Shown here one piece after another: positions 1 through 13,850 of a stretch of 64,000 nucleotides of DNA. The translations under genes and the position numbers were made by a program. The notes under the pieces are model-generated. The model was not told the DNA's origin, did no database searches, and was given only the letters and a program-made list of their open reading frames with translations. The stretch comes from Pseudosulfitobacter pseudonitzschiae (GTDB lineage: Bacteria; Pseudomonadota; Alphaproteobacteria; Rhodobacterales; Rhodobacteraceae). The stretch lies in assembly GCF_900129395.1 (NCBI RefSeq), contig NZ_FQVP01000001.1, positions 1 through 64,000 on the forward strand. The letters run 5' to 3'. The number at the start of each line of letters is the position of its first letter. Within the stretch, counting starts at the first letter, position 1.

Positions 1-25
1 CCTCGGTAAAACGTGTCTTCTTCAT
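1..25 (-). mobile_element. IS3-family transposase OrfA, 5' end only (cut by window edge)
   Basis: Only eight codons are visible, reading MKKTRFTE, preceded by a strong ribosome-binding site (AGGAGATTCC). This N-terminus is the usual opening of OrfA proteins of the IS3 family (IS511-like), which carry the helix-turn-helix half of the frameshift-fused transposase. The rest of the element lies left of the window. The exact IS end cannot be fixed; it should fall in the non-coding stretch just to the right. The identification rests on a very short peptide plus its ribosome-binding site. Confidence 0.55.
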
Positions 26-318
26 CGGAATCTCCTCGTTCATCCTGCCGAGAAAATTCTACTTCCGCATCCCCTTAAGATCGGGGGGGATTACCCCGCT
101 TAGGCTTTCGTTTGATCAACGAACATCGCAGTGCCTTCGACTCGATCTTGCAACTTCGCACGGTTATTATTGATCGATTGCGTTGCGATTCTTTTTGGCC
201 GTCTATGAACTAATTGCAGGCAGCGGTTGAGCCCGCAGATTTTAGCCGGTATCAGTGTTGAAGTTTTGGCAGGTTCTATCCAGCATGGCTGCAGTCAGAT
301 TTTCTCGGAGACATTACT
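26..318. other. Non-coding stretch between IS and GHKL cassette
   Basis: No credible gene. The left part should contain the terminal inverted repeat of the IS3-family element, perhaps around 50-85, where a short G/C-rich hairpin (ccccttaagatcgggggg) is seen. The right part is AT-richer and must hold the promoter of the GHKL cassette. A GGAG motif at 307-310 serves as ribosome-binding site for the TTG start at 319. Confidence 0.5.
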
Positions 319-2232
319 TTGCCCACATCTGTAAATGAAAAGACTCAAGAGCTTGTCGGTAGTATACGCGATAGTCTTTTACACGGGACCGCCGCTGAGG
401 GACGTCTAGAGACAAATGATAGGATCATTGCAAGGGTCACTGATGGGATCTATCGTGAGCCTTGGTCAGCATTTCGAGAGCTTGTGTCGAACGCTTACGA
501 TGCAGATGCGACTTCAGTGTCAATTGACTGCGACTACCCATTTTTCAATGAGGTACGGATCAGTGACGATGGCATAGGCATGGATAGCCAGACTGTTGCC
601 GACTTGCTGACAAACATTGGCGGTAGTTCAAAACGTACATTTCGAGGGAAATCTCTCGGGACGGTCAACACAAGTGATCCTACAAAGAGTCCGTCTGGCA
701 GAAAGTTAATTGGCAAAATCGGGATTGGCCTTTTTGCTGTTGCGCAACTTACAAATCACTTCCAGATCATCACAAAGCGCAAAGGTGATTCAGAGAGAAT
801 CTCAGCCACCGTTAAGATAAACACATATCGGGAAAACGCACACACGGATGAAGGCGACGAGGCCTACGCGAGTGGCACATATAAGGTGGTCGCAGAAAAG
901 ACTTCTGACATCGATGCGCACGGCACAACTATTGTTTTGATGAACATTCAACGGGCGGTACGGGAAAAACTGCAAAGTCGTGAAATATGGGATGCTCTTG
1001 ATGAGCAGGAAAGTGAAGGATCATTTGGTCTATTCGACATCGTTTCAAGGCCGAACTTTCATATAGGTAGAGTGAGTGCGAACGGGGAACTGTCGGTGCC
1101 TTCAAATCTACCGTGGGCCACAACTGATAGTTCGAAAGAGAAGTTCCAAAAACTATTTGACAGAACGATTGAACTGGGACGGAACTCCAGCGACCGAACT
1201 GATTTATCGCACCTCGACAATTACCTGAAGATGGTTTGGAGATTGAGTTTAGGTAGTCCAATCAGATATTTGGAAGTGCATCCTTTTGATTTTACAGGTT
1301 CAGTAGATTTAGATTTCTTTACGCTTTCAAATAAACCTAAAGGTGCGGCTAGCAGCATTTATCTTGATGAAGATCAGAGTATTCGATCGTCAATGGGATT
1401 GGAGGCCGGAACCAAGGATCCTCTTTCAGAGTTTTCGGTGTTTATTGACGGAGTTGAACTTTTCAGACCTGTCAAGCTATCTGACGTGCTGCAAGGGTCA
1501 AAAAACCTTCCTCGTCCGATGTTCTTTGCAGGCAAAGTTGAAACCAATTTTGGGGATGCTTCGGCTGACAGATCTGGAGGAAAGCTTGCCTTTGAAGCGT
1601 ACCTCTATTGGAATTCCAAAATCATTCCAAAAGAAAGCATTGGTGCGCTCATAAGGGTTAACGGCGCGAGCGGAACTTTATTTGATCCAGATTTCCTTGG
1701 CTATCAGATCGCAGAACAAACGCGGAAGAAACAAGTAACTTGCGAGATTTTCGTTCTTGAAGGGTTAGATGGTGCTTTGAATATCGATCGAGAATCGTAC
1801 AATACCAGTCATGCCCATTATCTTTACATTCAGAAGTGGCTTCATAACGCGTTCAGGCAGTTTGCGACCCAACACAAGAAAATCGGTCGCGAGGTTCGCG
1901 AAATAGAAGTCGAGGAAATTAGTTCTGGTGTAAATTCGAAATTAGCTGATATCACCGGCGAAGTTTGGGAGCGAATGCGAGGCGATGACATTGCCCTGCC
2001 AACAATCGAGAAAAGATCAATTTATCAGGGTGAGAGCTTGCCTGTCAAAGTTGGCGGCAACGAGATTTCGTGGGATCAGCCCAGAATCAGCAAAAGCAAA
2101 ATTGGACGATCAGACCGCATCGAAGCGATTTCAATTGTTTTGGATGCTTATGGCATACTTGAACTGCTTGATGATGAGCGCCGTGCCGATCTCCTGTTTG
2201 ATATAGCAACAATTTTTGAAGATGACGCATGA
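319..2232 (+). CDS. GHKL-fold (Hsp90/MutL-like) ATPase, first gene of a two-gene cassette
   Basis: A 637-residue protein with a complete GHKL (Bergerat) ATP-binding fold at its N-terminus: N-box ELVSNAYDADA near residues 54-64, DDGIGM at 83-88 and GKIGIGLFAVAQL at about 132-144. About 450 further residues match no family I recognise; Hsp90-like and MORC-like ATPases of bacterial conflict systems have this layout. Initiation appears to be TTG with GGAG eight bases upstream. The stop overlaps the next start as ATGA, so the two genes are translationally coupled. Base composition is clearly AT-richer than the phage-like module and the chromosome, which suggests separate acquisition. A defence role is inferred from fold, pairing and context only. 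Confidence 0.8.
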   Translation: MPTSVNEKTQELVGSIRDSLLHGTAAEGRLETNDRIIARVTDGIYREPWSAFRELVSNAYDADATSVSIDCDYPFFNEVRISDDGIGMDSQTVADLLTNIGGSSKRTFRGKSLGTVNTSDPTKSPSGRKLIGKIGIGLFAVAQLTNHFQIITKRKGDSERISATVKINTYRENAHTDEGDEAYASGTYKVVAEKTSDIDAHGTTIVLMNIQRAVREKLQSREIWDALDEQESEGSFGLFDIVSRPNFHIGRVSANGELSVPSNLPWATTDSSKEKFQKLFDRTIELGRNSSDRTDLSHLDNYLKMVWRLSLGSPIRYLEVHPFDFTGSVDLDFFTLSNKPKGAASSIYLDEDQSIRSSMGLEAGTKDPLSEFSVFIDGVELFRPVKLSDVLQGSKNLPRPMFFAGKVETNFGDASADRSGGKLAFEAYLYWNSKIIPKESIGALIRVNGASGTLFDPDFLGYQIAEQTRKKQVTCEIFVLEGLDGALNIDRESYNTSHAHYLYIQKWLHNAFRQFATQHKKIGREVREIEVEEISSGVNSKLADITGEVWERMRGDDIALPTIEKRSIYQGESLPVKVGGNEISWDQPRISKSKIGRSDRIEAISIVLDAYGILELLDDERRADLLFDIATIFEDDA

Positions 2233-3470
2233 ATAGTGAGGTCAATTTGTCGGAAGATAGCTTTGATGCCTTTTCTCTTCCAGAAGACATTGGAGAGATT
2301 GCATCTCCTGAGCCTCTAAGTTTTGCTCCTTGGCACAAGCCTAGAAAGCAGTTTGTACGAAAGTACCAGTGGGTTCGTCACGCTAATGCTACTATTAAAA
2401 AATTGAAAGATGCAGGTCATTTAGATGCAAATTCACCGGTCAGATATTTAACTCTTCCCGGTCCAGATTTGCTTGATGTGAAACTTATGGCAGACGTGTG
2501 TGCAGATCAGGAAGTCAGGCTACACTATACTGGTTTCTGCTATGTGCGTGAAACTGAAGCAGTCCGCTTAAGACGCCATACGCAGCAATTCGCACTAGAT
2601 AGAGGCACCCAAGTTTTACCCGGGTCAGGTGTCCATATCTCGCGGCTTGAAGAAATTACTAGGGCCAATTCCGCGGCAAAAACATTGATGGAACGAGGTG
2701 GCCCATACAGCATCGTTAACATCGATGCATGTGAGCCCATAGCCAATGAAGACGGAAACCAAACCGGGAGGCTCGTTGACGCAATACGAACGATTGTGGA
2801 CTATCAACTGAATGCAAGCCGTCAGCCTTGGTTGCTGTATCTTACGACGCCAGTTCAAACCGACAGCGTATCTGAAGGTGCGCAACGAGCGCTCCATGAC
2901 CAAGTGCGAAATAACGTTGCCGCCGATACTGAATTTGCCGAAGAACTAGCTGGGCGATATGCTGATGGTGAGGACGTTGATCAGTATTTGGTGCGTGTAT
3001 CGCAAGAAAACGGACACGAGTTTGTGCGAACTATAACTCTTGCGGTCTCTAAGTGGCTTGTTCACTTAGCTGAACAGGCAAACTTCAATGTCAAAAAGCT
3101 GCCTGCAGTTTGTTATTCAATGTTTAGGAAAGAGCCGTATCTGCCGAACATGGTCTCAACATGTTATCTATTTTTACCAAGGAACATCCCGATTCTTGAT
3201 AACACGGGGCTTACACCGAATGCCCAACCTCATGCAGGCCAAGCCCCGATTTCCGACCACATTCGAGCGCTGCGCCGATCAGTCGAAATCGAGAATATAG
3301 ATGAGACGATTTCAAACAGCCTTGAGTTGAAGAGCGCATTGGTAGCCGAAACCAAAGCCCTTCTTGGTGCTGTTGGCTATGATGTCGATCATCCTGAAAG
3401 GGGCTACGATATTTGGTTGTCAAGTGAACCAATGGAACTGGCCGATGACACCGCGCATATGGAAAGCTAG
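2229..3470 (+). CDS. Unknown protein coupled to the GHKL ATPase
   Basis: A 413-residue protein I cannot assign. A basic segment around residues 36-62 (HKPRKQFVRKYQWVRH) is followed by an alternating hydrophobic/acidic stretch, RYLTLPGPDLLDVKL (about 68-82), that could start a Rossmann-like strand-helix unit. There is no signal peptide or obvious transmembrane helix, so it is probably cytosolic. It begins four bases inside the ATPase gene (ATGA) and shares its low GC, which argues that the two form one functional unit. The protein may be the effector or the sensor partner of the ATPase, but nothing visible identifies catalytic residues. Confidence 0.7.
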   Translation: MNSEVNLSEDSFDAFSLPEDIGEIASPEPLSFAPWHKPRKQFVRKYQWVRHANATIKKLKDAGHLDANSPVRYLTLPGPDLLDVKLMADVCADQEVRLHYTGFCYVRETEAVRLRRHTQQFALDRGTQVLPGSGVHISRLEEITRANSAAKTLMERGGPYSIVNIDACEPIANEDGNQTGRLVDAIRTIVDYQLNASRQPWLLYLTTPVQTDSVSEGAQRALHDQVRNNVAADTEFAEELAGRYADGEDVDQYLVRVSQENGHEFVRTITLAVSKWLVHLAEQANFNVKKLPAVCYSMFRKEPYLPNMVSTCYLFLPRNIPILDNTGLTPNAQPHAGQAPISDHIRALRRSVEIENIDETISNSLELKSALVAETKALLGAVGYDVDHPERGYDIWLSSEPMELADDTAHMES

Positions 3471-3696: not shown

Positions 3697-4224
3697 TCAG
3701 CCGTTCCCCACGATGCGATTGCCCCACAGGGGCACGGCTTCCCGAACGCGTTGGCCGAACCCCGCACGATGCTTGGCGGCATTTTTCTTCCGTTCCAGCA
3801 TGTCGGCGGCTTCCGCCTCTCGAATTTGACCGGCTTTCAACTCGGAAATCTCGGGCATGTCTGCCCCGCGTTTCGGGCCGCGTTCGATCGTGCATTGTCC
3901 GACGACTTCGCCCGCAACATGGACGGTGTTTGACCGTGGCACCGGAGCCGGACGCACGCCCAGCAGGACGGGGGCACCGGCCCGCAGCGGGCGAATGATC
4001 CAGTCACCGGCGGCGTTCTGAACCACGTTTCCCGAGACATAGGCGCGGGCGACTTCGAATGCCTCCTGCGAAAGCGGTTCCTTGTCGGGGTTGCGCTCCC
4101 ATGCGTCGATCGCGGCGGCGGATGCACCGGTGCGGCTGGCCAGCAGGCGAACGGCAAACTGGCGACGATCACCGGACAGGCGGCGGAAAAGCGTGTGGAC
4201 GTCGGCGGGGGTCAGGTGGTTCAT
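3697..4224 (-). CDS. Unknown protein, last gene of leftward phage-like operon
   Basis: A 175-residue protein with no recognised family. The first 65 residues are helical and could form a small helix-turn-helix-like domain (SGDRRQFAVRLLASRTGASAAAIDAWE within about 17-43). The C-terminal third is charged and coiled-coil-like (about 120-160). It overlaps the upstream prohead-protease-like gene by ATGA. In tailed phages the gene after the prohead protease is usually the major capsid protein, but this one is much too short and has no HK97-fold hallmarks. It is the last gene before the GHKL cassette, so a longer ancestral operon could have been interrupted. Confidence 0.65.
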   Translation of the reverse strand: MNHLTPADVHTLFRRLSGDRRQFAVRLLASRTGASAAAIDAWERNPDKEPLSQEAFEVARAYVSGNVVQNAAGDWIIRPLRAGAPVLLGVRPAPVPRSNTVHVAGEVVGQCTIERGPKRGADMPEISELKAGQIREAEAADMLERKKNAAKHRAGFGQRVREAVPLWGNRIVGNG

Positions 4225-4829
4225 GCGAGAATTCCTTTGAATGCTTTCAGCTGGTCGGCCAGCCTCTGTTCGGTGGGGGTCAACGTGCTGGCGGTTCCGG
4301 TCAGTTCGCGGGTGAACTTTGAAAATTCCTTCACGGCGCTTTCTAGATCGCGGCCCAGCAGCTTGGCCATTTCCTTGTCGGTTATCGCGCGGGCGCTGGT
4401 CATGACGGCTTCGTAACAGGCCGGTTCGACCACGATCGAAACTTCCTCAAGTTCGGCCTTTTCGATCACCAGATATTCGCGGTTAGGGTCGCCCGGCCAC
4501 GGTTCGACGCTGACGGTGTCAAGGAACATGCCGACGCTGAACGACAGCAGTTGCACCGCCAACAGTTTCTGCAAGTCGCGGCCCGCTTCGGTATCGACGA
4601 CGATACCTTCGACCCACAGGCCGTATTGGCCCGAACCCCAAAGGCGCGGTTCAGCCTTGATCCAGATGCCCACGGGCACGACGTGGCGGTCGTGGGTCCA
4701 CAGCATCTTGAGGGCGCGCGATGCCCCTGTGCCAAGCGCGGGATGGATCACCAGACCGCGTGCCAGCGTCTTGTGGCCCACACGGTCGATTGTCGGGGCG
4801 CTGGCCCAACCGGAAATGAAAAACGGCAT
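4221..4829 (-). CDS. Prohead (HK97-family) serine protease-like protein
   Basis: A 202-residue protein with the pattern of caudoviral prohead proteases (peptidase family U35). It opens with ISGWAS (typically I.GYAS), has a candidate catalytic His in LWTHD (about residue 48), a candidate catalytic Ser in LSFSVGM (about 96) and the conserved ELEEVSIVVEPA block (about 127-138). Such enzymes process scaffold and capsid during head maturation. The start lies one base after the stop of the upstream 83-residue gene (TGATATG) and the stop overlaps the next ATG, so it sits in a coupled operon. No scaffold or major capsid gene is visible, which makes its substrate unclear. Confidence 0.8.
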   Translation of the reverse strand: MPFFISGWASAPTIDRVGHKTLARGLVIHPALGTGASRALKMLWTHDRHVVPVGIWIKAEPRLWGSGQYGLWVEGIVVDTEAGRDLQKLLAVQLLSFSVGMFLDTVSVEPWPGDPNREYLVIEKAELEEVSIVVEPACYEAVMTSARAITDKEMAKLLGRDLESAVKEFSKFTRELTGTASTLTPTEQRLADQLKAFKGILA

Positions 4830-4830
4830 A

Positions 4831-5082
4831 TCAGCGGCCCAACGTCTTGAGGGCGCGCGACAGGGCGGCGATTGCGTCCGCAGCGGGATCGGTGGTCACG
4901 GTCTTGTTCGTCACGCCACACACGCGGCGGGCTTCCAGCACGGGCGCAAGGTCGCGGTGGGTCAACCGGCCATTTCGGGCCAGCGTGTCGGCCAGCGCCG
5001 ACTTTTGAACGCCGTTCAACAGTTCGGGGCGGATACCGGCGGTCGCGTTGGCCGTCAGGCGGCCATTTTCAAGAATTCGCAT
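4831..5082 (-). CDS. Small unknown phage-like protein (83 aa)
   Basis: An 83-residue protein starting MRILENGRLTAN. The ATG at 5082 was chosen because it lies inside the end of the preceding 43-residue reading frame, like the other coupled starts of this operon; an in-frame start at 5175 would add 31 very arginine-rich residues and overlap that reading frame further. The internal segment ALADTLARNGRLTHRDLAPV is helical. No family recognised. The stop is one base before the prohead-protease-like start. Confidence 0.6.
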   Translation of the reverse strand: MRILENGRLTANATAGIRPELLNGVQKSALADTLARNGRLTHRDLAPVLEARRVCGVTNKTVTTDPAADAIAALSRALKTLGR

Positions 5083-5200
5083 CGGTCTGGCCTTTCGAAT
5101 TGCAGGGGGAAACCGGCGCATCGGTTCCGTACTGGTCCGGCGGCGTCTGCGGTTGCGGGGGATTGCGCCGATCACTCGGGCGGGTGCTGGTCAGTTTCAT
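5069..5200 (-). CDS. Candidate 43-residue proline-rich peptide, coupled
   Basis: The ATG at 5200 overlaps the stop of the upstream 48-residue gene as ATGA, and the frame ends inside the start of the 83-residue gene. The peptide is polar and proline-rich (NPPQPQTPPDQYG). It has no homolog I recognise. The chained overlaps are the main support; it could instead be a leader that only carries ribosomes to the next gene. Confidence 0.4.
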   Translation of the reverse strand: MKLTSTRPSDRRNPPQPQTPPDQYGTDAPVSPCNSKGQTDANS

Positions 5201-5343
5201 GCGGGCACCAGCATGTGTTCGGCCACCATTTCGAACAGCATGGCGGCCTGCGAATGATCGTCGGCCAGACCTTCGTCGACCATGTAGTCGTAAAGATCGG
5301 CCAGACACGCGAACACGGGTTCAGCTTGTGGGGGGTTCATCAT
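5197..5343 (-). CDS. Tiny acidic protein (48 aa), paralog of the preceding gene
   Basis: A 48-residue acidic protein beginning MMNPPQAEP, with the segment LYDYMVDEGLADD followed by AAMLFEMVAEHML. It aligns by eye with the 42-residue gene immediately upstream (LYAYLIDHKLVAD and AALVCHLV), so the two look like a tandem duplication. Its first ATG overlaps the stop of that gene, and its stop overlaps the next ATG. No family recognised. Confidence 0.55.
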   Translation of the reverse strand: MMNPPQAEPVFACLADLYDYMVDEGLADDHSQAAMLFEMVAEHMLVPA

Positions 5344-5468
5344 TGGGGGGCCTGTTGTTGTTGGTGGAATTGCGAAACCAAATGACAGACCAGCGCCGCC
5401 GACGGGATATCGGCGACCAACTTATGGTCGATCAGATAGGCATAAAGCGCGATACGGTCGGCAAACAT
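5340..5468 (-). CDS. Tiny protein (42 aa), first gene of the leftward operon
   Basis: A 42-residue protein (MFADRIALYAYLIDHKL, ending in a glutamine-rich tail) that opens the leftward operon. A purine-rich stretch upstream (reverse complement of ggcgcacctt) provides a weak ribosome-binding site. It is similar in spacing of LY, Y, D, L and AA residues to the next gene, suggesting duplication. It is divergent from the ribbon-helix-helix regulator and probably controlled with it. Confidence 0.5.
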   Translation of the reverse strand: MFADRIALYAYLIDHKLVADIPSAALVCHLVSQFHQQQQAPQ

Positions 5469-5702
5469 GGGCGCACCTTTTGGGGCGGGCCGTAGTCGCC
5501 TGCACGGGCGCATTCCGGTTGGGGGGGTGGAGTTCCGCGCCGCAAGGGCGTGGGGTCATGGTGCTACAGATTTCGGCCGGTGGTCAAGGCTTTTTTCGCG
5601 TAACCTCTTGGTAACAAAGGATAACAAGAACGATTTTCCTTGCGGTGCGGGGTCGTTGGGGTATTAAAACTCCTTTAAGGAGCCTTTAAAGGAGTTTTTA
5701 AA
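5469..5702. promoter_or_regulatory. Divergent control region of the phage-like module
   Basis: The space between the leftward small-gene operon and the rightward regulator/terminase operon. It must contain both promoters. The right end carries the strong palindrome described separately at 5666-5698. A stretch around 5583-5640 is AT-richer (taacaaaggataacaagaacg) and is a plausible promoter core, but I cannot assign -35 and -10 boxes with confidence. Confidence 0.5.
5666..5698 (+). promoter_or_regulatory. 13-bp perfect inverted repeat overlapping the ribosome-binding site of the regulator gene
   Basis: Arms aaaactcctttaa (5666-5678) and ttaaaggagtttt (5686-5698) are perfect complements around a 7-base loop. 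A nested palindrome ctcctttaaggag spans 5670-5682. The right arm contains AAAGGAG, the ribosome-binding site for the ATG at 5703. As DNA this is a good operator for the downstream ribbon-helix-helix protein; as RNA the hairpin would hide the ribosome-binding site. A 12-of-13 match to the left arm recurs at 9001-9013. Confidence 0.6.
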
Positions 5703-5912
5703 ATGGCAGGTCGTCACTCACTGCACACCGAATTTCTGGGCATTTACATCACACCGGAAGCCAAAGCCGATCTTGTCCAAGCGTCGAAAGAAAGTGGCAT
5801 GTCGCTTTCGTGGCACGTCCGCGAGTGTTTGAAGGCCCATTACGGCAAGCGCGACGGTGGGCCAGCGCCGACGAAACCGGTTGCGTTGATGCCGCGACCA
5901 CGGGGGGCTTGA
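5703..5912 (+). CDS. Ribbon-helix-helix (CopG-like) small regulator
   Basis: A 69-residue protein whose residues 10-48 fit the ribbon-helix-helix fold: strand FLGIYIT, helix PEAKADLVQASKESG, then helix MSLSWHVRECLKAHYG; the tail is basic and proline-rich. Such dimers bind short palindromes, and a 13-bp palindrome sits immediately upstream, which suggests autoregulation. It leads the rightward operon with the terminase genes, two bases from the next ATG. It could regulate both divergent operons. Confidence 0.7.
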   Translation: MAGRHSLHTEFLGIYITPEAKADLVQASKESGMSLSWHVRECLKAHYGKRDGGPAPTKPVALMPRPRGA

Positions 5913-5914
5913 TC

Positions 5915-6532
5915 ATGAACCGGATGCCCGCACCAAGAGGTTATACGCCGCCATGGGGTGCCCCGCCGCAAGAGGGATGGCCCGCGCCGCTACCGTCCAG
6001 ATGCGCCGACGCCCGCCGGTTTCAGAACGGCGATGAACTGTGGCAAGAGGCGGCGGCCTATTTCCAGCACTGCAAGGGTACACCGTTTCGGATCAACAAA
6101 CTTTCGAAAGGCAAGGTCGTTCCGGTTGAAACTGAACACCTGCCGACGTGGGAAGGGCTGGCCGCTTGGCTGTCGATACACGTCAATTTGTTTGTGGAAT
6201 GGCGACGCCCCGAGAACAAACGGCCAGACCTGTGCGCGGTGGTTTCGCAGATCGACAACTATATTCGATCTCTGGCCATCTCGGGCGGGATGGCCGGTGT
6301 GTTCAACCCCGGTCTGGTGGCGCGGTACGTCCAGTTGGCCGACCACAGCGTGTCAAACGTCGATGCTACGCTATCGCCCAAGGCACCGGCGATCGACGAC
6401 CGAAATCTGGCGATCCACCAGCACCCCGATATGACCGACGACGAACTGGACGCCATCCTGGCACGCGGTGAACAGCCCCTGTTGTTCAGCCAAGCCCAGA
6501 TCGACGCGGGGGTGAAATACCGTGCGCCTTGA
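5915..6532 (+). CDS. Terminase small subunit-like DNA-packaging protein (gp3 type)
   Basis: A 205-residue protein starting MNRMPAPRGYTPP. It matches the pattern of gp3-type packaging proteins: a short region setting up the substrate (AAYFQHCKGTPFRINK), then a helix-turn-helix-like block LPTWEGLAAWLSIHVNLFVEWRR (quoted in part), then helices ending SGGMAGVFNPGLVARYVQLAD, where the family has a GIFNANLI-type motif. Small terminases recognise the packaging site and recruit the large subunit. The ATG at 5915 was chosen over an upstream in-frame start because the latter would lie inside the regulator gene. The stop overlaps the large-subunit start. Confidence 0.75.
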   Translation: MNRMPAPRGYTPPWGAPPQEGWPAPLPSRCADARRFQNGDELWQEAAAYFQHCKGTPFRINKLSKGKVVPVETEHLPTWEGLAAWLSIHVNLFVEWRRPENKRPDLCAVVSQIDNYIRSLAISGGMAGVFNPGLVARYVQLADHSVSNVDATLSPKAPAIDDRNLAIHQHPDMTDDELDAILARGEQPLLFSQAQIDAGVKYRAP

Positions 6533-8048
6533 ACAGCGGCGATATATCGCCCCGTGGTCTTCGCAACAGTTGGTTTCGGGCTTCCTGATCACCCGTCACC
6601 TTGCGCGCACCCGCGTTCTCAAGATGCCGCCCGAGGCCCAGCCGCGCGACGTTGCGGTTCGGTTGACCATGGCGCCGCAGGCGGTTCGCGATCGTGTGAA
6701 AGCCGCCGAACAGGCCGACGTCGAACTGTTCCCGAAACTGTTCTCATGGAAGCCGCCCGAATACGATCCAGACGACCACAGCGACCCGCTGGCCGACCTG
6801 TTGAACCGGTCGGGCGTCTACCGTCACTTTGCGTTGTGGTCGGGGCGCGGTGCCACGAAATCGCACCGCGCCGCCGCTGCGGTGATCGAACTGGCGTCCA
6901 CCGCTTGCGAACGGGTCGTTTGCCTTCGGATGGTCCAGAACAGCATCAAGGACAGCGCCAAGGAAACGCTGGAAATCAAGATCAAGGCGTCGGAATGGGC
7001 CGACGACTGGACGATCCTTGACCAAGAACTGCGGAACAACAAAACGGGGTCAACCGTGGTGTTCAAGGGGTGCCGCGACCCCGATACGATCAAGTCGCTA
7101 GAGGGCGCGACGCTGACGTGGTTTGAGGAAGCCGGACCGGTCACGCAGACGGTGATTGACGTGCTGTTGCCGACGATCATGCGCCAAGCCACCAGCCGCG
7201 TTTTGTGGACGTGGAACCCCATGCCGGACCCCCAGCCGGTTGACGCCCTGTTCAGGGGCGATACGCCAGCGGAACGGGCGTTGGTGCGCTACATGCCTGT
7301 TGAGGGCAACCGGTGGCTGTTCGTTGGCGACATGATCGGTGACATGCGCCGGTCGTGGCTGGCCGAAAGCGACCCAAAGAAACCGAAATATCTGCACATC
7401 TATTGCGGGGCGTATTTCGACAGTCACGACGCGGTGGTGTTGGACCCGGCGAACATGACCGTGGGGCGGTTCGATTTCACCAAGGTTCTAAATCAGGCCG
7501 CGATTATCGACCGCGCCGGAATGGATTTCAGCCACGGGTCAGGCAGCGGCCAGCACGCGGCGATCGGGCTTTCGATCATTCCGGCGGATCAACTGCCCGG
7601 TTACGATCCAGACGATCCAACGTGCAAAACGGTGATCTATATCCACCGCGAGGACGTCCGCAGTGTGTGCCCCGTCGATCGGCTTTGGGAAATGGCCGTT
7701 GCGGTCGGTGCTGACGGCGGGTCGATCTATTGCGACAGCGCCAACCCGCTGTTGACAGAGGCGGTTGGGGCGAACGGGCGCGTCAGGGCCGAACTGGCGG
7801 TCAAGGGCCAGAACAGCATCAATCAAGGGCTGGCGATGCTGGCCAGCGTCTACCTGGTCTTTTCACCCGACTGCCCGACCAGCTACGCCCAATGCAAGGC
7901 GCTGCGGTGGAAAACCGACAAACACGGCAAGGTCGTGATGCCTCTTGAGGCGGTGGGCGTCGATCATTGCCCAGACGCCATCCGCTACGCTCTTTCCGGT
8001 CTGTCTCTTGCAATTGGCCGCCACGGTGGCGGCGTCGTCTACGTTTGA
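6522..8048 (+). CDS. Phage terminase large subunit
   Basis: A 508-residue packaging motor of the PBSX-like terminase group. Visible motifs: a Walker A variant GRGATKS at 108-114, Walker B and catalytic Glu in TWFEEAG at 199-205, a WTWNP coupling motif near 230, and in the C-terminal nuclease half acidic residues in DRAGMDFSHG and YCDSANP. It starts with GTG at 6522, inside the small-subunit gene, preceded by GGGGGTGA. The length is normal for a complete large subunit, so the gene looks functional. No portal gene follows, although terminase normally docks on a portal. Confidence 0.92.
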   Translation: MRLEQRRYIAPWSSQQLVSGFLITRHLARTRVLKMPPEAQPRDVAVRLTMAPQAVRDRVKAAEQADVELFPKLFSWKPPEYDPDDHSDPLADLLNRSGVYRHFALWSGRGATKSHRAAAAVIELASTACERVVCLRMVQNSIKDSAKETLEIKIKASEWADDWTILDQELRNNKTGSTVVFKGCRDPDTIKSLEGATLTWFEEAGPVTQTVIDVLLPTIMRQATSRVLWTWNPMPDPQPVDALFRGDTPAERALVRYMPVEGNRWLFVGDMIGDMRRSWLAESDPKKPKYLHIYCGAYFDSHDAVVLDPANMTVGRFDFTKVLNQAAIIDRAGMDFSHGSGSGQHAAIGLSIIPADQLPGYDPDDPTCKTVIYIHREDVRSVCPVDRLWEMAVAVGADGGSIYCDSANPLLTEAVGANGRVRAELAVKGQNSINQGLAMLASVYLVFSPDCPTSYAQCKALRWKTDKHGKVVMPLEAVGVDHCPDAIRYALSGLSLAIGRHGGGVVYV

Positions 8049-8059
8049 AAGGATCACCG

Positions 8060-8506
8060 ATGGAACTGTCCAACCTACTGACCACGGCCACCAGCGACGC
8101 CCCACGGCTTGCACGCGGCCACACGCTGGCCTTTGGCCACGTCCCGCTTTGGTTGCCGCAATGGAACGTGGCCGAACGCCGCGACGGCGCGGTGGTCAAG
8201 ATTTCCGGCAACACCAAGGAACTGGTCGTGCTGGACGTGCTGACGATCACACCACAGACGCTACGGGCCGACCTACAGGCGTTTGTCGGGTGGTCGGGCA
8301 CGGTGGTGCTACCGCACGACCACGACCGCACCCTAGCGGCGGAATACGGTGCCTTTGGGCGCGATGCTATCTGCGCGCCCCGTAAGGTGCCCGCGTGGGT
8401 TCATCAGGCGGTGTTGACCGCCGACAGGCCGCTGACGCCCACGGAACGCGCGGCGGTGCATCAGGCGGCGTGTGCATTGGACGGGGGCGGTGTGTCATGG
8501 ATTTGA
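8060..8506 (+). CDS. Unknown protein (148 aa) after terminase
   Basis: A 148-residue protein with ribosome-binding site GAAAGGAT and ATG at 8060, 11 bases after the terminase stop. The composition is globular and soluble with a central beta-rich region (VVKISGNTKELVVLDVLTI). In a standard tailed phage the portal gene would stand here, but this protein is far too small. It could be an adaptor that joins the terminase to a helper portal, but that is speculation. The stop overlaps the next small gene. Confidence 0.6.
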   Translation: MELSNLLTTATSDAPRLARGHTLAFGHVPLWLPQWNVAERRDGAVVKISGNTKELVVLDVLTITPQTLRADLQAFVGWSGTVVLPHDHDRTLAAEYGAFGRDAICAPRKVPAWVHQAVLTADRPLTPTERAAVHQAACALDGGGVSWI

Positions 8507-8610
8507 CCGACGACGACGTGCAAGCCGCAATCGACCTGTTGGAAGCCCCCGACACGCGGGACGGTGACGACGCGGTGCTGGAACTGCTGACCGAACTCGA
8601 AAACGGATAA
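8497..8610 (+). CDS. Tiny acidic protein (37 aa), end of rightward operon
   Basis: A 37-residue very acidic protein (MDLTDDDVQAAIDLLEAPD...), beginning 10 bases inside the preceding gene. Its DDVQAAIDLLE helix resembles the acidic small proteins of the leftward operon. No family recognised. It is the last gene of the rightward operon. Confidence 0.5.
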   Translation: MDLTDDDVQAAIDLLEAPDTRDGDDAVLELLTELENG

Positions 8611-8977
8611 GTTATCCGCGTACAAACGAGCGGAAACCACTTATTTTTATGGCGTACCTTTGGCCTGCGGTTGGCCGTTTTCAGGGTTAGCCACGGCATA
8701 GCCATTTTCGGCCATCGGCTGGGGTATTATGATACCGGTGCGGGTGTTCTGCGGCTGGCCAACTTGCCGACGGGCCAGCCGCATTGCCGACCCCCCGCGT
8801 GCAGGCGTTCGGGGTCAGCGCGCAAACGGGCGGTTGTTGGGGGCACCCGTTGCGGTCAACGTACGTGCGCAGGTGGTGTGTGGTCAAGGGGCCGTGTGGT
8901 GCGTCCGTTGGCCTGCGGATCGGTCAGGGTGGTTTCGTTACTGGATGCCCTAGACTGTGCGAAAAGTCGGACAAAAG

Positions 8978-8995
8978 TGTGCGAAATTTCGCACA
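8978..8995. repeat. 18-bp perfect palindrome tgtgcgaaatttcgcaca
   Basis: A perfect 18-bp palindrome. The half-site tgtgcgaaa also occurs upstream at 8956-8964. The core gcgaaatttcgc is repeated exactly in a second palindrome at 9096-9109. Paired copies suggest binding by one dimeric protein. Confidence 0.7.
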
Positions 8996-9095
8996 ACCAC
9001 AAAACTCTTTTAAAATTCCTTTAAAACTCCCCCCAGCAATCCCCCAGCAGCGTTTCAGTGGCGTTTCGGTGTTTCCGGTTTTGGATCGGGGCATA

Positions 9096-9109
9096 AGCGA
9101 AATTTCGCT
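9096..9109. repeat. 14-bp perfect palindrome agcgaaatttcgct
   Basis: Shares the 12-bp core gcgaaatttcgc with the palindrome at 8978-8995; centre-to-centre distance is about 116 bp, which is close to eleven helical turns, so both sites would face the same side of the DNA. Confidence 0.7.
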
Positions 9110-9149
9110 CATTTCCCCCAGAATGGCAAATTATCGTTTAAAAACAACA

Positions 9150-9242
9150 CAAACCCGCAGTTTGGCCGATGTGGCGGAAAACGGCTAATTATATATCCTA
9201 CATATAGCCAAATTCCGCCACATCGCCAGAAGTGCGGGTTTG
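9150..9242. repeat. 38-bp imperfect inverted repeat with 17-bp AT-rich centre
   Basis: Left arm 9150-9187 and right arm 9205-9242 match at 31 of 38 positions after reverse complementing. Strongest blocks are tagcc, ttccgccacatcg and tgcgggtttg. The centre 9188-9204 is almost purely A/T (attatatatcctacata). It lies just beyond the 3' end of the primase-helicase gene. There is no terminal T-run, so a simple terminator is unlikely; an origin unwinding site is a better fit. Confidence 0.65.
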
Positions 9243-9262
9243 CGTTGATTTCATTGGATAAT

Positions 9263-12200
9263 TTAGGGTTTCGGGCGCATTGTCGGGCGCATTTTGCTGC
9301 CCAAACGCACCCGAACGCCTGCGATCAGCCGCTTTTCAGCCTTCAAACGCTTTACGATTGCCGTTGCGTCCAGATCGGGGAACGCTTGCCGGATGGTGTG
9401 GGCGATTGATCCAGCACCCGTGCCGCGTTCGATCATCTGTTCGGGCGGTTGGGTGCGTAGGTAATCGACCACAGCGTCCAGCACGTCGCCCAGCGGGGCG
9501 AAACCGTCGGCCTGCCCCCCGAACCCGAACAACGGTCTTAGAATGGCGTCTGCGGCGTCCTGTGTGGCCGCATCGACCGTCACCGGCACCCGTTCGCCAC
9601 CCACCGTCACGAAACACCCGCCCTGCGCTTTGAAATCGGGGGCGCACGACGGTATCCCGAGGCGGGGGCGGTACGTGCGCCCGAAATCGCGGGCCATGCG
9701 CTGGCGGTGCGTTTCCAGCCCCCGCACGTCGGTTTCGTATTCTTCGGCGTTCTTGATCTGCTCGGGGGTTTCGAAAATTCCACCCAGCGCAATGCGGATC
9801 AGTTCGCGGCGGTGTCGGACGCCCTTGTCTACGTCCAGCCCGCGCACGTTCAGCATATCGCGCACCGTGGGCTGTAATTCCTGCCACGTTCCCCATTCGT
9901 CATAGAACAGCGGCAACGGTGTATCGGTCAGAATGTCGATGAACAGTTTTTCGTCGGGCCGCCGGTGAGCGCGCAACCGGCCGATGGATTGCATCAGTTC
10001 CCCGCGCACGATCAGGATCAGCAGGCGGTTTGCAATCGTGTTCGGGTGATAGATCACGCCACGGGTGGGGATCGGCCCGCTGTTGGGTAGTGCGCGGGCG
10101 TGGAACCCTTCGATGTATCTTGCGGGGTGGGCGTCCAGGGGCACCCGCTGCGCCTGCGGTATGGCCGTTTGCGTGAGGATTTCGACGATGTGTTCGATTG
10201 CGTCCATGGTGGGCAGGACGCGGCCAATGATCAGCGCATAGGTTGCGTCGGCGGCTTCGTTCTGTCCGGTGGTCGCGTTAAAGTGCATCACGGTCAGCCC
10301 GTCGTCGTTGTCGGCGTCGAACAGGCCGGTGTCGGTGACGGCTTTTTGAGCGACCACCAGCGCGCGTTTTGCGCCAAGCTGTTTCCGCCGGTGCTGGGAA
10401 TATCGTTCAACGTCCATCAGCAGCGGCGACGGCTTCAGTAGGTTGGTCATGGGGTCCGGCGCCACCAGCGACGACCGGCTGAACGATTTATCGGTGACGG
10501 TGCGCAGGGTGGTGTTCTCGGGCAGCGGCGGCATGGCGTGGGTAACGGTCAGGCGGTCCTGCGCGCCCTTGCCGATGGCGTAGCGGAACAGTTCGGGGTC
10601 GATCGTTGCTGACATGACTGCGAATGGTGCGTCTGTCCATGTGTGGTGAATTGGCGTGTGACCCCCGATCCAGACCGCCCGCTTTCCGTTGGCGGCGGCG
10701 GTGTTCAGCTTCAGCGCGGGGATTGTCTGATATTGGGCCATCGCGTCGGTTGACGTGTGTTTGCGCAGGTATCGCAGGACGTGCATCGCGTCGTTGTAGG
10801 GGCCTTTGTCGTTTTTCCAGTCGATCAATTCCTGTTTGCCGGTGTCGCCCACGTCGGAAACCTTGCCGAATTCGCCCCGCCGTTTCCCCAGCGCGTCGAT
10901 CAGTTCGCTGTACTGTTCACGGTTGATTATCCAATGGGCCGGCACACGACCGTCGGGGGTGTTCGCCAGCGTTGTGTGGATCATCGCCAGCCTGTCGCGC
11001 AGTCGCTTTTGATCCGGTCCGAATGCGGGTTGCCCGCCGTCGCACTGGTCCAGCGTGTCGGGGTTCAGGTGGTCCAGCGGGAACGGCTGGTCGCTGCCCA
11101 CGGCGATCAGTGTCGGGTCTTCGTCGACGATCAGACCGGCGATTGCGCCCCGTGGGAACAAGCCGTTTGCGGACTGCCGCAGATATTGGTGCGGCATGAA
11201 CACCACGTCGGCGCTGCGGGCGTCGTCGCGCAGTTCGATGTACTTGCACCCGTCACGCAACGGACAGGCGGCGCACACGGCCCGATCGACACCCAGTCCC
11301 GCGTCGATCGCCAGCGAAACGGGGGTTTTATAAATTTGGGCGTCGGTGGTTTCGCCCTTGGGGGGTCTCAGGCCGCAAAGGTATCGTTTGGGATCGTCAG
11401 GGTGTGGGTGATCACGCCCGCGCAGCACGCCGATTTTCAGCGGTTCGATGTGCGGGTGTTCGGCTTCGATTGCGCGTATGCGATCGACGGTGGCGTCGAT
11501 CAGTTCATGCCGGGGCATGGCGACCACCACCGGCGCGCGCCACAGACCGGCGGCACCCTGGGCGCTGGCCGCGTGTTTTGACATGGCTTGCCAGTTGGCG
11601 GCCAGCGAATGGACGGCGTTTTCAATCCCGTAGGTTTTCCCGACGCCGGTCGCGACCCTGACGACGCGTGCCAGGGCGTCGGCTGGCGGCTCTGGCATGG
11701 GGCGGGCCATCGGGGGGGATGGCGTTTTATCCCGTATCGCTTTCGCTTCCTCTGCGCGCTGTTCGGTCACCATTTGGCGTTCGATCAGGTATTCGGCCCA
11801 CGGTTTGAAGCTGGCGGCCAGTTCGTGGAATGTGTCGGCCACCACGGCCCGCGCGTCGTCCATAGTGCCCGATCCGGCGGGCAACACGTTGTTGGTGAAA
11901 TTGGCGGCTTCACCGTGGCGGGCGAATGTGAACCGTCGGTTCCAGCCGTGGGCGAAACTGAAAATATGCGCATCGACCCCCAGCCGCAGGTGCGCTGTTG
12001 CTGACCCGTAGTCGCGGCCTTCGATCGGGCACGGGATATACTGGCCGTCAGCGAACCGCCCGCTGTCCAGCAGTTCGGCGACGGTTATGTCGGTGCCGTC
12101 GGCCAGTTGCAGAACGAAATCATCGGTCAGGATGCTGAAACGGTCGAATGCGTCCAGATCGGCGTCGATTTCCGCGTCGCTCTTGGTGCTGCCGTGGGCC

Positions 12201-13123
12201 TTGATCCGTTCGCGGCGCCCGACGCGCCAGTGCGTGCGCACCATACCAGCCAGCGCCGCCATGCGTTCACGGTCGGCGATCCGCAGGGCGTCGGCGGTGG
12301 TCCGTTCTGCATCGGTCAGAGGTGCGGGCAGGTCGGCCACCGGTTGACCTGACAGGACCACCGGTGGGGGGGCGTCACGTTCCACACCGGGGTCGATTGT
12401 CGGGGCGGCTTCGTAAATCAGGCGTTCCATGCCGCCGACGGTGGTATCGACGATTGATCGTTCCAGCAGGTGGCCGGATTTGCTGACCATATGCCACGCG
12501 AACCCGTGCAACCACGCCCGCCGCTGAAGGTCTTTTAGCAGTTCGGACAGGTTGGTATCGGCGGGGATGAACCCGAATGTGTGCAGGCTGTTTGCGGTCG
12601 GTATCGGGTGACCGGCCAGACGCACGCCCGCGCTGGATGAAGCGGTTTCGATAGCCTCGGCGCGGGCCAGTTCCGGCCAGATGGTCCGCAACGCGGGGCG
12701 CACACCGCCTGCGACGCCCAGCCGATCGGCCACCGCTGGCGGCATGGCGTCGGGGTCACTGTCCAGCATGAACACGCGGGCGGGTGTTTTCGGTGCGCCC
12801 ATGTGGGCGGCGGTCCGCGTGATGTGTTCGGCGTAAAACTGCGGGTATCGCTGTTTGTTTTCCTTGGTGGTGATGTTGAATGTCTCGGGCAGGTATGGTG
12901 TCAGCGGGACGCCCAACCCGATTGCTTGGTGTGCGGTCAGGGCGTTGCGCACGTTCACCAGATCGGCGGGGCGTTCCAGATTGACGACCTGCCCGACCCC
13001 GTTGACCATTTGGGCGAGTGACGTTTTGCCCAGCGTTCCATCAGGTGCGACAAAGAACCGTTTGTTCAGCGGCTGGCGTGCATCCGTTGAAGTGAAAACC
13101 GTAATTTGCGCGCGGGGTGACAT
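9263..13123 (-). CDS. Primase-like / Fe-S helicase-like fusion replication protein
   Basis: A 1286-residue protein. Residues 1-245 resemble bifunctional primase-polymerase (AEP-type) domains: an acidic DxD-type motif in FMLDSDPDAM (118-127) and SSSAGVRL (162-169) before a GHLLERSIVD block. Residues 485 onward form a helicase: Walker A ATGVGKTYG (491-499) and VDED (666-669). Between them sit four cysteines, C583, C617, C620 and C626, arranged as in XPD/DinG-type helicases with an Fe-S cluster, followed by ADVVFMPHQYL as in those enzymes. It probably primes and unwinds element DNA. It starts at ATG overlapping the upstream stop (TAATG). Confidence 0.75.
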   Translation of the reverse strand: MSPRAQITVFTSTDARQPLNKRFFVAPDGTLGKTSLAQMVNGVGQVVNLERPADLVNVRNALTAHQAIGLGVPLTPYLPETFNITTKENKQRYPQFYAEHITRTAAHMGAPKTPARVFMLDSDPDAMPPAVADRLGVAGGVRPALRTIWPELARAEAIETASSSAGVRLAGHPIPTANSLHTFGFIPADTNLSELLKDLQRRAWLHGFAWHMVSKSGHLLERSIVDTTVGGMERLIYEAAPTIDPGVERDAPPPVVLSGQPVADLPAPLTDAERTTADALRIADRERMAALAGMVRTHWRVGRRERIKAHGSTKSDAEIDADLDAFDRFSILTDDFVLQLADGTDITVAELLDSGRFADGQYIPCPIEGRDYGSATAHLRLGVDAHIFSFAHGWNRRFTFARHGEAANFTNNVLPAGSGTMDDARAVVADTFHELAASFKPWAEYLIERQMVTEQRAEEAKAIRDKTPSPPMARPMPEPPADALARVVRVATGVGKTYGIENAVHSLAANWQAMSKHAASAQGAAGLWRAPVVVAMPRHELIDATVDRIRAIEAEHPHIEPLKIGVLRGRDHPHPDDPKRYLCGLRPPKGETTDAQIYKTPVSLAIDAGLGVDRAVCAACPLRDGCKYIELRDDARSADVVFMPHQYLRQSANGLFPRGAIAGLIVDEDPTLIAVGSDQPFPLDHLNPDTLDQCDGGQPAFGPDQKRLRDRLAMIHTTLANTPDGRVPAHWIINREQYSELIDALGKRRGEFGKVSDVGDTGKQELIDWKNDKGPYNDAMHVLRYLRKHTSTDAMAQYQTIPALKLNTAAANGKRAVWIGGHTPIHHTWTDAPFAVMSATIDPELFRYAIGKGAQDRLTVTHAMPPLPENTTLRTVTDKSFSRSSLVAPDPMTNLLKPSPLLMDVERYSQHRRKQLGAKRALVVAQKAVTDTGLFDADNDDGLTVMHFNATTGQNEAADATYALIIGRVLPTMDAIEHIVEILTQTAIPQAQRVPLDAHPARYIEGFHARALPNSGPIPTRGVIYHPNTIANRLLILIVRGELMQSIGRLRAHRRPDEKLFIDILTDTPLPLFYDEWGTWQELQPTVRDMLNVRGLDVDKGVRHRRELIRIALGGIFETPEQIKNAEEYETDVRGLETHRQRMARDFGRTYRPRLGIPSCAPDFKAQGGCFVTVGGERVPVTVDAATQDAADAILRPLFGFGGQADGFAPLGDVLDAVVDYLRTQPPEQMIERGTGAGSIAHTIRQAFPDLDATAIVKRLKAEKRLIAGVRVRLGSKMRPTMRPKP

Positions 13124-13329
13124 TAGCTGTTGACCAACAACACCGCGTCAGCGGCGATCTTGACGCGCAATCGCAGCGGGCAACCCTGTTCGATTATCTG
13201 TCGGGTTCGACCGTCGTTCAGCAACAGCAACTTTGCGACGCGGTGGCCGTCGGTGTGGTATTCGATGCTGCGAACAACGCTGGGCGTAGCGGTATTGTTC
13301 GCCCGCGCGGGGCGTTGTGGGTGTGTCAT
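13123..13329 (-). CDS. Small protein (68 aa) coupled to primase-helicase
   Basis: A 68-residue protein with a basic N-terminus and a beta-rich middle (VAKLLLLNDGRTRQIIEQG). Its stop overlaps the primase-helicase ATG as TAATG, so translation is coupled. No family recognised. It could be a replication accessory or a leader gene. Confidence 0.55.
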   Translation of the reverse strand: MTHPQRPARANNTATPSVVRSIEYHTDGHRVAKLLLLNDGRTRQIIEQGCPLRLRVKIAADAVLLVNS

Positions 13330-13662: not shown

Positions 13663-13776
13663 AGGGGGATGGCCAGCGCCCAAATTGATCGTGGCTATGC
13701 TGTGGCTGTTTATCGCCCACAGCAACCCGAACCGGCGGGGGTGTCTCGCAAAGCGTTGAAATATATAGGAAGTTTG

Positions 13777-13850
13777 TGGAGGCGAGTACCGGAATCGAAC
13801 CGGTGTACACGGATTTGCAATCCGCTGCGTCACCACTCCGCCAACTCGCC
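13777..13850 (-). tRNA. tRNA-Cys (GCA)
   Basis: Reading the minus strand from 13850, the acceptor stem GGCGAGT pairs with ACTCGCC near the 3' end, with U as discriminator and CCA encoded (13779-13777). The anticodon loop TTGCAAA carries GCA, giving cysteine. The T-loop reads GGTTCGATTCC. All 74 positions fit the cloverleaf. Its 3' end faces the phage-like module, so the module probably integrated into the 3' end of this gene. Confidence 0.95.

Follow-up and report, generated by a model that had tools for sequence, protein, structure and literature searches.

The stretch of DNA analysed here, referred to as the window, comprises the first 64,000 nucleotides of contig C23 (NZ_FQVP01000001.1) of the draft genome of Pseudosulfitobacter pseudonitzschiae, and near its left end lies an integrated element with genes for DNA packaging and replication. 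An initial annotation had confined this element to about 9.6 kb, described the small (TerS) and large (TerL) terminase subunits, a prohead protease and a primase-helicase as intact, noticed no portal, major capsid, tail or integrase gene, and likened the whole to a satellite that packages itself in the heads of a helper phage. Profile matches confirm all four genes. TerS (5810-6532, plus strand) is of the gp3 type (PF16677, 1.3e-13; phrog_606, 1.8e-15), and its true start is probably located further in than the annotated one. TerL (6522-8048, plus strand, 508 aa; PF04466, 1e-18; phrog_3717, 8.4e-31) carries an N-terminal extension of about 100 residues, of the satellite type discussed below. 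In an alignment of the TerLs of this and three related elements, G108, R109, G110, K113, S114, E203, D335, D405 and D481 are invariant, and we take these to be motor and nuclease residues. Since the protein is full-length and has the conserved motifs, the dependence on a helper's TerL that is typical of phage-inducible chromosomal islands (PICIs) does not apply to it.

The protease gene (4221-4829, minus strand, 202 aa) belongs to the S78 (HK97-type) family, with matches to PF04586 (4.4e-6, above the cut-off) and phrog_80 (9.1e-10). The match is modest in this copy, as PF04586 gives 4e-18 for the related copy of Primorskyibacter flagellatus and 2.1e-15 for that of genome G255; H46, S98 and E129, presumably the catalytic residues His46, Ser98 and Glu129, are invariant in an alignment of the three copies. 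The element thus has its own TerS, TerL and maturation protease, as capsid-forming PICIs (cf-PICIs) do. The primase-helicase gene (9263-13123, minus strand, 1286 aa) matches phrog_16593 (1.1e-24 over residues 6-255) and its relatives are distant; the N-terminus is of the primase type (DNA primase family), and SF2-helicase-like motifs were recognised in the middle of the protein by pattern matching alone. Next to it, a small open reading frame (ORF) of 68 aa (13123-13329, minus strand) comes from the ORF call, with no profile match reported. Replication genes vary among the related elements.

Extent of the island and the assembly break

The left edge of the window is base 1 of contig C23, and it is an artificial edge, where the assembly breaks at an insertion sequence (IS). 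The IS end occupies positions 1-95 (minus strand), the same sequence is present at five other contig ends, and from the start of its transposase we take the IS to be IS3-family-like. On the other side of the element lies a tRNA-Cys(gca) gene, the integration target (13777-13850, minus strand, from the tRNA annotation), together with a 50-bp attachment-site (att) copy (13774-13823, no strand). A search for a repeat of the 3' end of this tRNA gene, which had been proposed as a check, found an exact 50-bp copy at C16:749060-749109, located 2.7 kb before the end of contig C16 and oriented as expected for the far att site. Between this copy and the IS, the tail of C16 contains a 217-aa ORF, a tyrosine integrase gene (PF00589, 4.6e-12; phrog_1, 6.6e-50) and, after the integrase, a 58-aa helix-turn-helix (HTH) gene that is placed like AlpA/Cox, although its profile matches are weak (at best 0.0024 for HTH and 0.0074 for Cox-like).

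Ends of this IS occur in the draft genome as six A-ends and six B-ends, which we paired by the 4 bases flanking each end (target duplication). A partner was found for four of the six A-ends, while two A-ends and two B-ends stayed unpaired, and the duplication CCGC pairs solely the C16 end with the start of C23. The junctions paired in this manner are C16/C23, C22/C11, C22/C13 and C8/C20. A single contig of the congener G589 carries both the C16 flank (77% identity) and the tRNA-Cys gene with the C23 flank; the distance between the two is about 16.3 kb, and a different island and an imperfect att copy lie in this interval. The flanks in G590 have identities of 94-95% and are split over two contigs. 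Because of the CCGC match, the identity of the att copies and the congener synteny, the C16 tail and the C23 head are very probably, as judged from sequence, the two sides of a single tRNA-Cys island. Both of its ends are located and its length is 16,348 bp (about 16.3 kb) without the IS.

Thus, of the earlier description, the gene coordinates hold, while the size of about 9.6 kb does not, since the cargo cassette at 319-3470 and the C16 tail also belong to the island. Nor does the element lack an integrase: the gene is located outside the window, past the IS at the assembly gap, and together with the att repeats it gives the island an arrangement that is characteristic of PICIs. Capsid genes had been suspected to the left, behind the cargo cassette, and what lies there instead is the IS, the AlpA/Cox-like gene, the integrase and the att site. 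A portal-capsid operon directly to the left, which would have made this a simple prophage, is absent, and the satellite reading survives.

At E 0.01, no gene of the island was found in the corresponding stretches of the congeners G589, G587 and G590, where the tRNA-Cys locus is occupied by other DNA, and an empty site was not seen among the five congeners (G587-G591); the tRNA-Cys flanks of G591 are on separate contigs and G588 has no match to the tRNA side. The tRNA-Cys gene is an island hotspot in the genus, with different DNA in each of G589, G587 and G590.

Related elements and the search for shell genes

TerL searches were run against four overlapping genome sets. Besides the genome of the window (G000), the search of 295 genomes of the family gave G222 and G255 at E 1e-30, that of 390 genomes of the order gave the same three genomes at 1e-60, and that of 385 genomes of the class gave G000 alone at 1e-40; five genomes were found at 1e-30 among 394 of the family, namely these three together with G981 and G138, whose TerLs belong to ordinary prophages, where the next gene is a portal gene by profile. 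An earlier scan of genome contigs with TerL had found no relative, and a profile scan of such contigs found two among 109 stretches: P. flagellatus and a contig of Pararhodobacter sp. CCB-MM2, which corresponds to G222. In IMG/VR, scans with TerL gave no close relative and three distant TerLs (28-34% identity), of which L103 is on a Milano-like phage contig and L104 and L105 are on contigs of 35.6 and 35.9 kb. There are thus four elements, including that of the window, located beside four different tRNA genes in one bacterial family, presumably Rhodobacteraceae, judging from the names Primorskyibacter and Pararhodobacter. The comparison with related genomes proposed by the initial annotation accordingly bore out a similar gene set in other genera of the family.

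The P. flagellatus element (on L047) is complete, with a length of 13.5 kb and 19-bp att repeats at tRNA-Arg, and it carries an integrase, a small HTH gene, a primase, TerS, TerL, genes X, RHH (ribbon-helix-helix), Y, S78 and Z, and cargo; relative to Y-S78-Z, the terminase block of the window element is inverted in comparison with this one. Beside a tRNA-Ser gene, G255 has RHH, Y, S78, Z, TerS and TerL, with AAA and DUF927 replication-like genes farther along, and the G222 element is sited at tRNA-Met, judged from a 12-bp repeat.

The small genes that accompany the packaging genes recur in these elements. In the window, gene Z (3697-4224, minus strand, 175 aa) and gene Y (4831-5175, minus strand, 114 aa) stand after and before S78, respectively, as they do in three of the four elements, with identities of 22-26% for Z and 32-33% for Y. 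Gene X (8060-8506, plus strand) follows TerL; it resembles the gene 3' of TerL in P. flagellatus (29% identity) and in G222. A ribbon-helix-helix (Arc/CopG-like) protein of 69 aa (5703-5912, plus strand), recognised by a weak match (0.003-0.014), has counterparts in P. flagellatus and, weakly, in G255. Profile searches gave no family match for X or for Y, and no phage matches were found for the P. flagellatus copies of Z and X. The predicted structure of Z has four N-terminal helices at a mean pLDDT of 58; the structure predictions of X and Z are too weak for use, and a PDB search with Z returned nothing below E 0.9.

Shell genes were sought by tblastn in five stretches (the two parts of the window island, P. 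flagellatus, G255 and G222), using as queries the portal and capsid proteins of phages Milano, 7-7-1 and Ssp-JY38, and the connector, head-completion and sheath proteins of Milano. For Ssp-JY38, whose record names no capsid, the capsid was assigned by similarity to the same gene of L103. With these portal, capsid, connector, head-completion and sheath queries, no match in any of the stretches fell below E 0.23. Every one of the four elements is matched by the TerLs of the same phages (E 3e-38 to 6e-61). The proteases of these phages match three of the four (E 1e-6 to 9e-33), the one without a match being G222, in which PF04586 also finds no S78. As a positive control, the same queries detected consecutive genes for TerL, portal, protease and capsid on the 5.3-kb L103 contig. 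Capsid genes matching PF05065 are present elsewhere in all four host genomes and in none of the elements. Portal, major capsid and tail genes were therefore recognised by neither profile nor tblastn searches, in agreement with the initial annotation. In this respect the window element resembles PICIs, which are without capsid or tail genes; neither the major capsid, portal and connectors of a cf-PICI nor the portal and capsid beside TerL of a prophage were found in it.

These results also bear on the idea that the element is a cf-PICI whose capsid genes were lost or diverged past recognition. Such elements do have genes for TerS, TerL and a head maturation protease, according to the part of PMC10690885 available to us. 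However, portal, capsid and connector genes were found in none of the four elements, and those genes of the packaging module that have no assignment are short, at most 175 aa in the window. The size argument is limited by the fact that the folds of X and Z are not predictable with confidence. We nevertheless consider this explanation very unlikely.

Another explanation would be a decayed prophage, in which portal, capsid and tail genes were lost and the terminase, protease and replication genes kept by accident. In favor of decay, the G222 element is a remnant of the same lineage that retains TerS, TerL and X only, an IS is inserted in the window element, and the window S78 matches its family weakly and forms a long branch. 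On the other hand, the same reduced set is found in several genera, at different tRNA genes, with intact frames and a TerL identity of about 40%, which makes independent decay an unlikely source. Moreover, the N-terminal feature specific to the TerLs of these elements is conserved, and the P. flagellatus element, which lies between two att repeats, has kept its integrase. Accidental decay is thus disfavoured, and we regard it as improbable, though less so than a cf-PICI without its capsid.

The cargo is located at the left of the window. A GHKL (HATPase_c_3) ATPase of 637 aa (319-2232, plus strand; PF13589, 3.7e-15) is followed by a partner gene of the PP_RS20740 family (2229-3470, plus strand, 413 aa; NF047698, 4.3e-109). 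The GC content of this cassette (319-3470) is 46%, as opposed to 62% in its surroundings, and the two genes are likely a recent cargo pair, possibly with a defensive role. The cargo of P. flagellatus is a Schlafen/AlbA_2 gene with HATPase_c_4 (L047:14642-16294) and that of G222 is a TIR-like effector (L043:9484-10419); these look defensive, too.

Origin of the terminase and the protease

In a tree of 11 TerLs, the satellite copies form one clade with 100/100 support, whether the extension is kept or removed. All four have 82-100 residues before the ATPase core, and this extension is missing from six full-length comparators, i.e. Milano, 7-7-1, Ssp-JY38, Tedan and the prophages G981 and G138, of which four were judged by alignment and two by start positions. 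The extension, as represented by the first 95 residues of the P. flagellatus copy, has no phage match at E 0.5. For both TerL and S78 of P. flagellatus, the best phage matches fall in the same group, which consists of Milano, 7-7-1, OLIVR4 and two Synechococcus phages, and the gene order in Milano, 7-7-1 and Ssp-JY38 is TerL-portal-protease-capsid. For the window TerL, among the matches listed, two Synechococcus phages come first (3e-47), and several others stand before Milano (1e-32). The best match of TerS is to gp3-type small subunits of IME10-like phages (42%). The terminase therefore looks composite at the sequence level, with TerS and TerL from different phage lineages, the alternative being a shared older source.

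In the S78 tree, satellite and Milano-like copies are set apart from five other S78 copies of the host genomes (99/97), with a long-branch warning. A single clade of the satellite S78 copies was not supported (6% of bootstrap trees); the window copy forms a long branch, with a warning of false joins. This tree bears on the possibility that the element exploits a gene transfer agent (GTA) of the cell instead of a phage. Contig C11 of the host carries a protease-capsid pair which we infer to be GTA-like. However, the satellite S78 groups with the Milano-like proteases, apart from the GTA-like copies (with the same support and the same warning), and GTA heads hold far less than the 13-16 kb of these elements. 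A GTA as the carrier is thus scarcely credible.

Interpretation as a probable phage satellite

Taken together, the element has its own integration and replication genes, a full terminase and a protease, and no shell genes were recognised in it. On these grounds we consider it quite likely that it is a phage satellite which brings its own two-subunit terminase and protease and borrows heads and tails. The reading of the initial annotation is thus supported, with the use of helper heads being its inferred part; the element probably spreads inside particles made by another virus.

Comparison with known systems places it between classes. PICIs of proteobacteria and the Staphylococcus aureus pathogenicity islands (SaPIs) redirect the terminase of the helper, and cf-PICIs encode a major capsid, a portal and a head-tail connector (as described in the part of PMC10690885 available to us). 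With PICIs and SaPIs, the window element shares an integrase, a replication gene, TerS, the lack of capsid and tail genes, a similar size and perhaps, given the weak profile matches, a small regulatory or excision gene; it differs in having its own TerL and S78 protease. With cf-PICIs it shares TerS, TerL and a head maturation protease of its own, whereas the major capsid and portal, the central feature of that class, and the head-tail connector were not found in it. As judged from those descriptions (PMC10690885), which set it apart from both, it fits neither class cleanly. The satellite-plasmid TG93 of Vibrio crassostreae, a PISP, has a head maturation protease and a small terminase and is thought to disturb helper head assembly, and offers a parallel, as a satellite that carries such a protease but not a complete head; however, TG93 is a plasmid with a Capsid protein E and no detected integrase, and the part of its description available to us names no TerL (PMC13230959). 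Milano and 7-7-1 (Schmittlotzvirus) and the Synechococcus phage Ssp-JY38 are among the nearest phages in TerL and S78 sequence, but these are complete phages with genomes of 65-69 kb that include portal and capsid genes, and their TerLs are without the extension. VEIMEs and tycheposons are likewise marine integrative elements, and some may share the gene set. In our search of the literature, accessible in part, no satellite was described as having TerS, TerL and a protease while lacking a capsid. We thus cautiously regard the element as a variant of phage satellite that is new relative to the PICI and cf-PICI descriptions, the gene content of VEIMEs and tycheposons being outside this comparison.

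Contig C23 also carries a resident prophage (about 889-910 kb, L101-L102), with a TerL, a PF04860 portal, an S49 protease, a PF05065 capsid and a protein of 1050 aa, about the size of a tape-measure protein. It was considered as the source of the element and rejected, as no similarity to the element genes was found at E 1e-3.

Several observations weigh against the satellite interpretation. With its S49 protease and a TerL from another family, the resident prophage is not an obvious partner. A helper, excision, induction and particles are all unobserved. The IS gap is unsequenced, and the proposed join consists of a 4-bp match, the att identity and synteny. The window S78 is 27-30% identical to Milano-like phages and 29-32% to host-genome S78 copies (a range that excludes a 44-residue piece at 36%), and because these identities are alike, this protein alone does not separate a phage from a host source. 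Genes X, Y and Z are without known function or confident fold, and a structural role is conceivable. Finally, no integrase or att repeat was found in the G255 locus, and G222 is a decayed 4.3-kb remnant without S78, in which TerS, TerL, X and the TIR-like gene are left.

For a phage satellite of this kind, the following course may be envisaged. When a tailed phage of a compatible type grows, the element would excise and replicate with its own primase-helicase. The terminase, made of a gp3-type TerS and a Milano-lineage TerL with the satellite-specific N-terminal domain, would recognise the satellite's own DNA and dock on the portals of the helper's procapsids, and the heads of the helper would thereby be filled with satellite DNA. 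S78, alone or with Y and Z, might act on helper procapsids, either maturing those captured for the satellite or altering their assembly. The cargo genes may protect the cell from other phages.

In its most specific form, towards which we lean slightly, this interpretation describes a separate satellite lineage in one family of marine-type alphaproteobacteria that would seize the heads of a helper during packaging by means of a complete motor of its own, combining a TerL of one lineage and its new N-terminal domain with a TerS seemingly from another, and whose private S78 protease would act on the procapsids of another virus. If true, the lineage would stand midway between PICIs, whose motor is borrowed, and cf-PICIs, which supply an entire head; the satellites in the descriptions available to us do one or the other. 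An element with a motor and a protease but without a shell would demonstrate that hijacking can be done with the motor itself, and would make it possible to test whether a foreign protease takes part in the capsid maturation of another phage. The extra domain of TerL, in turn, would be a sequence marker for finding such satellites.

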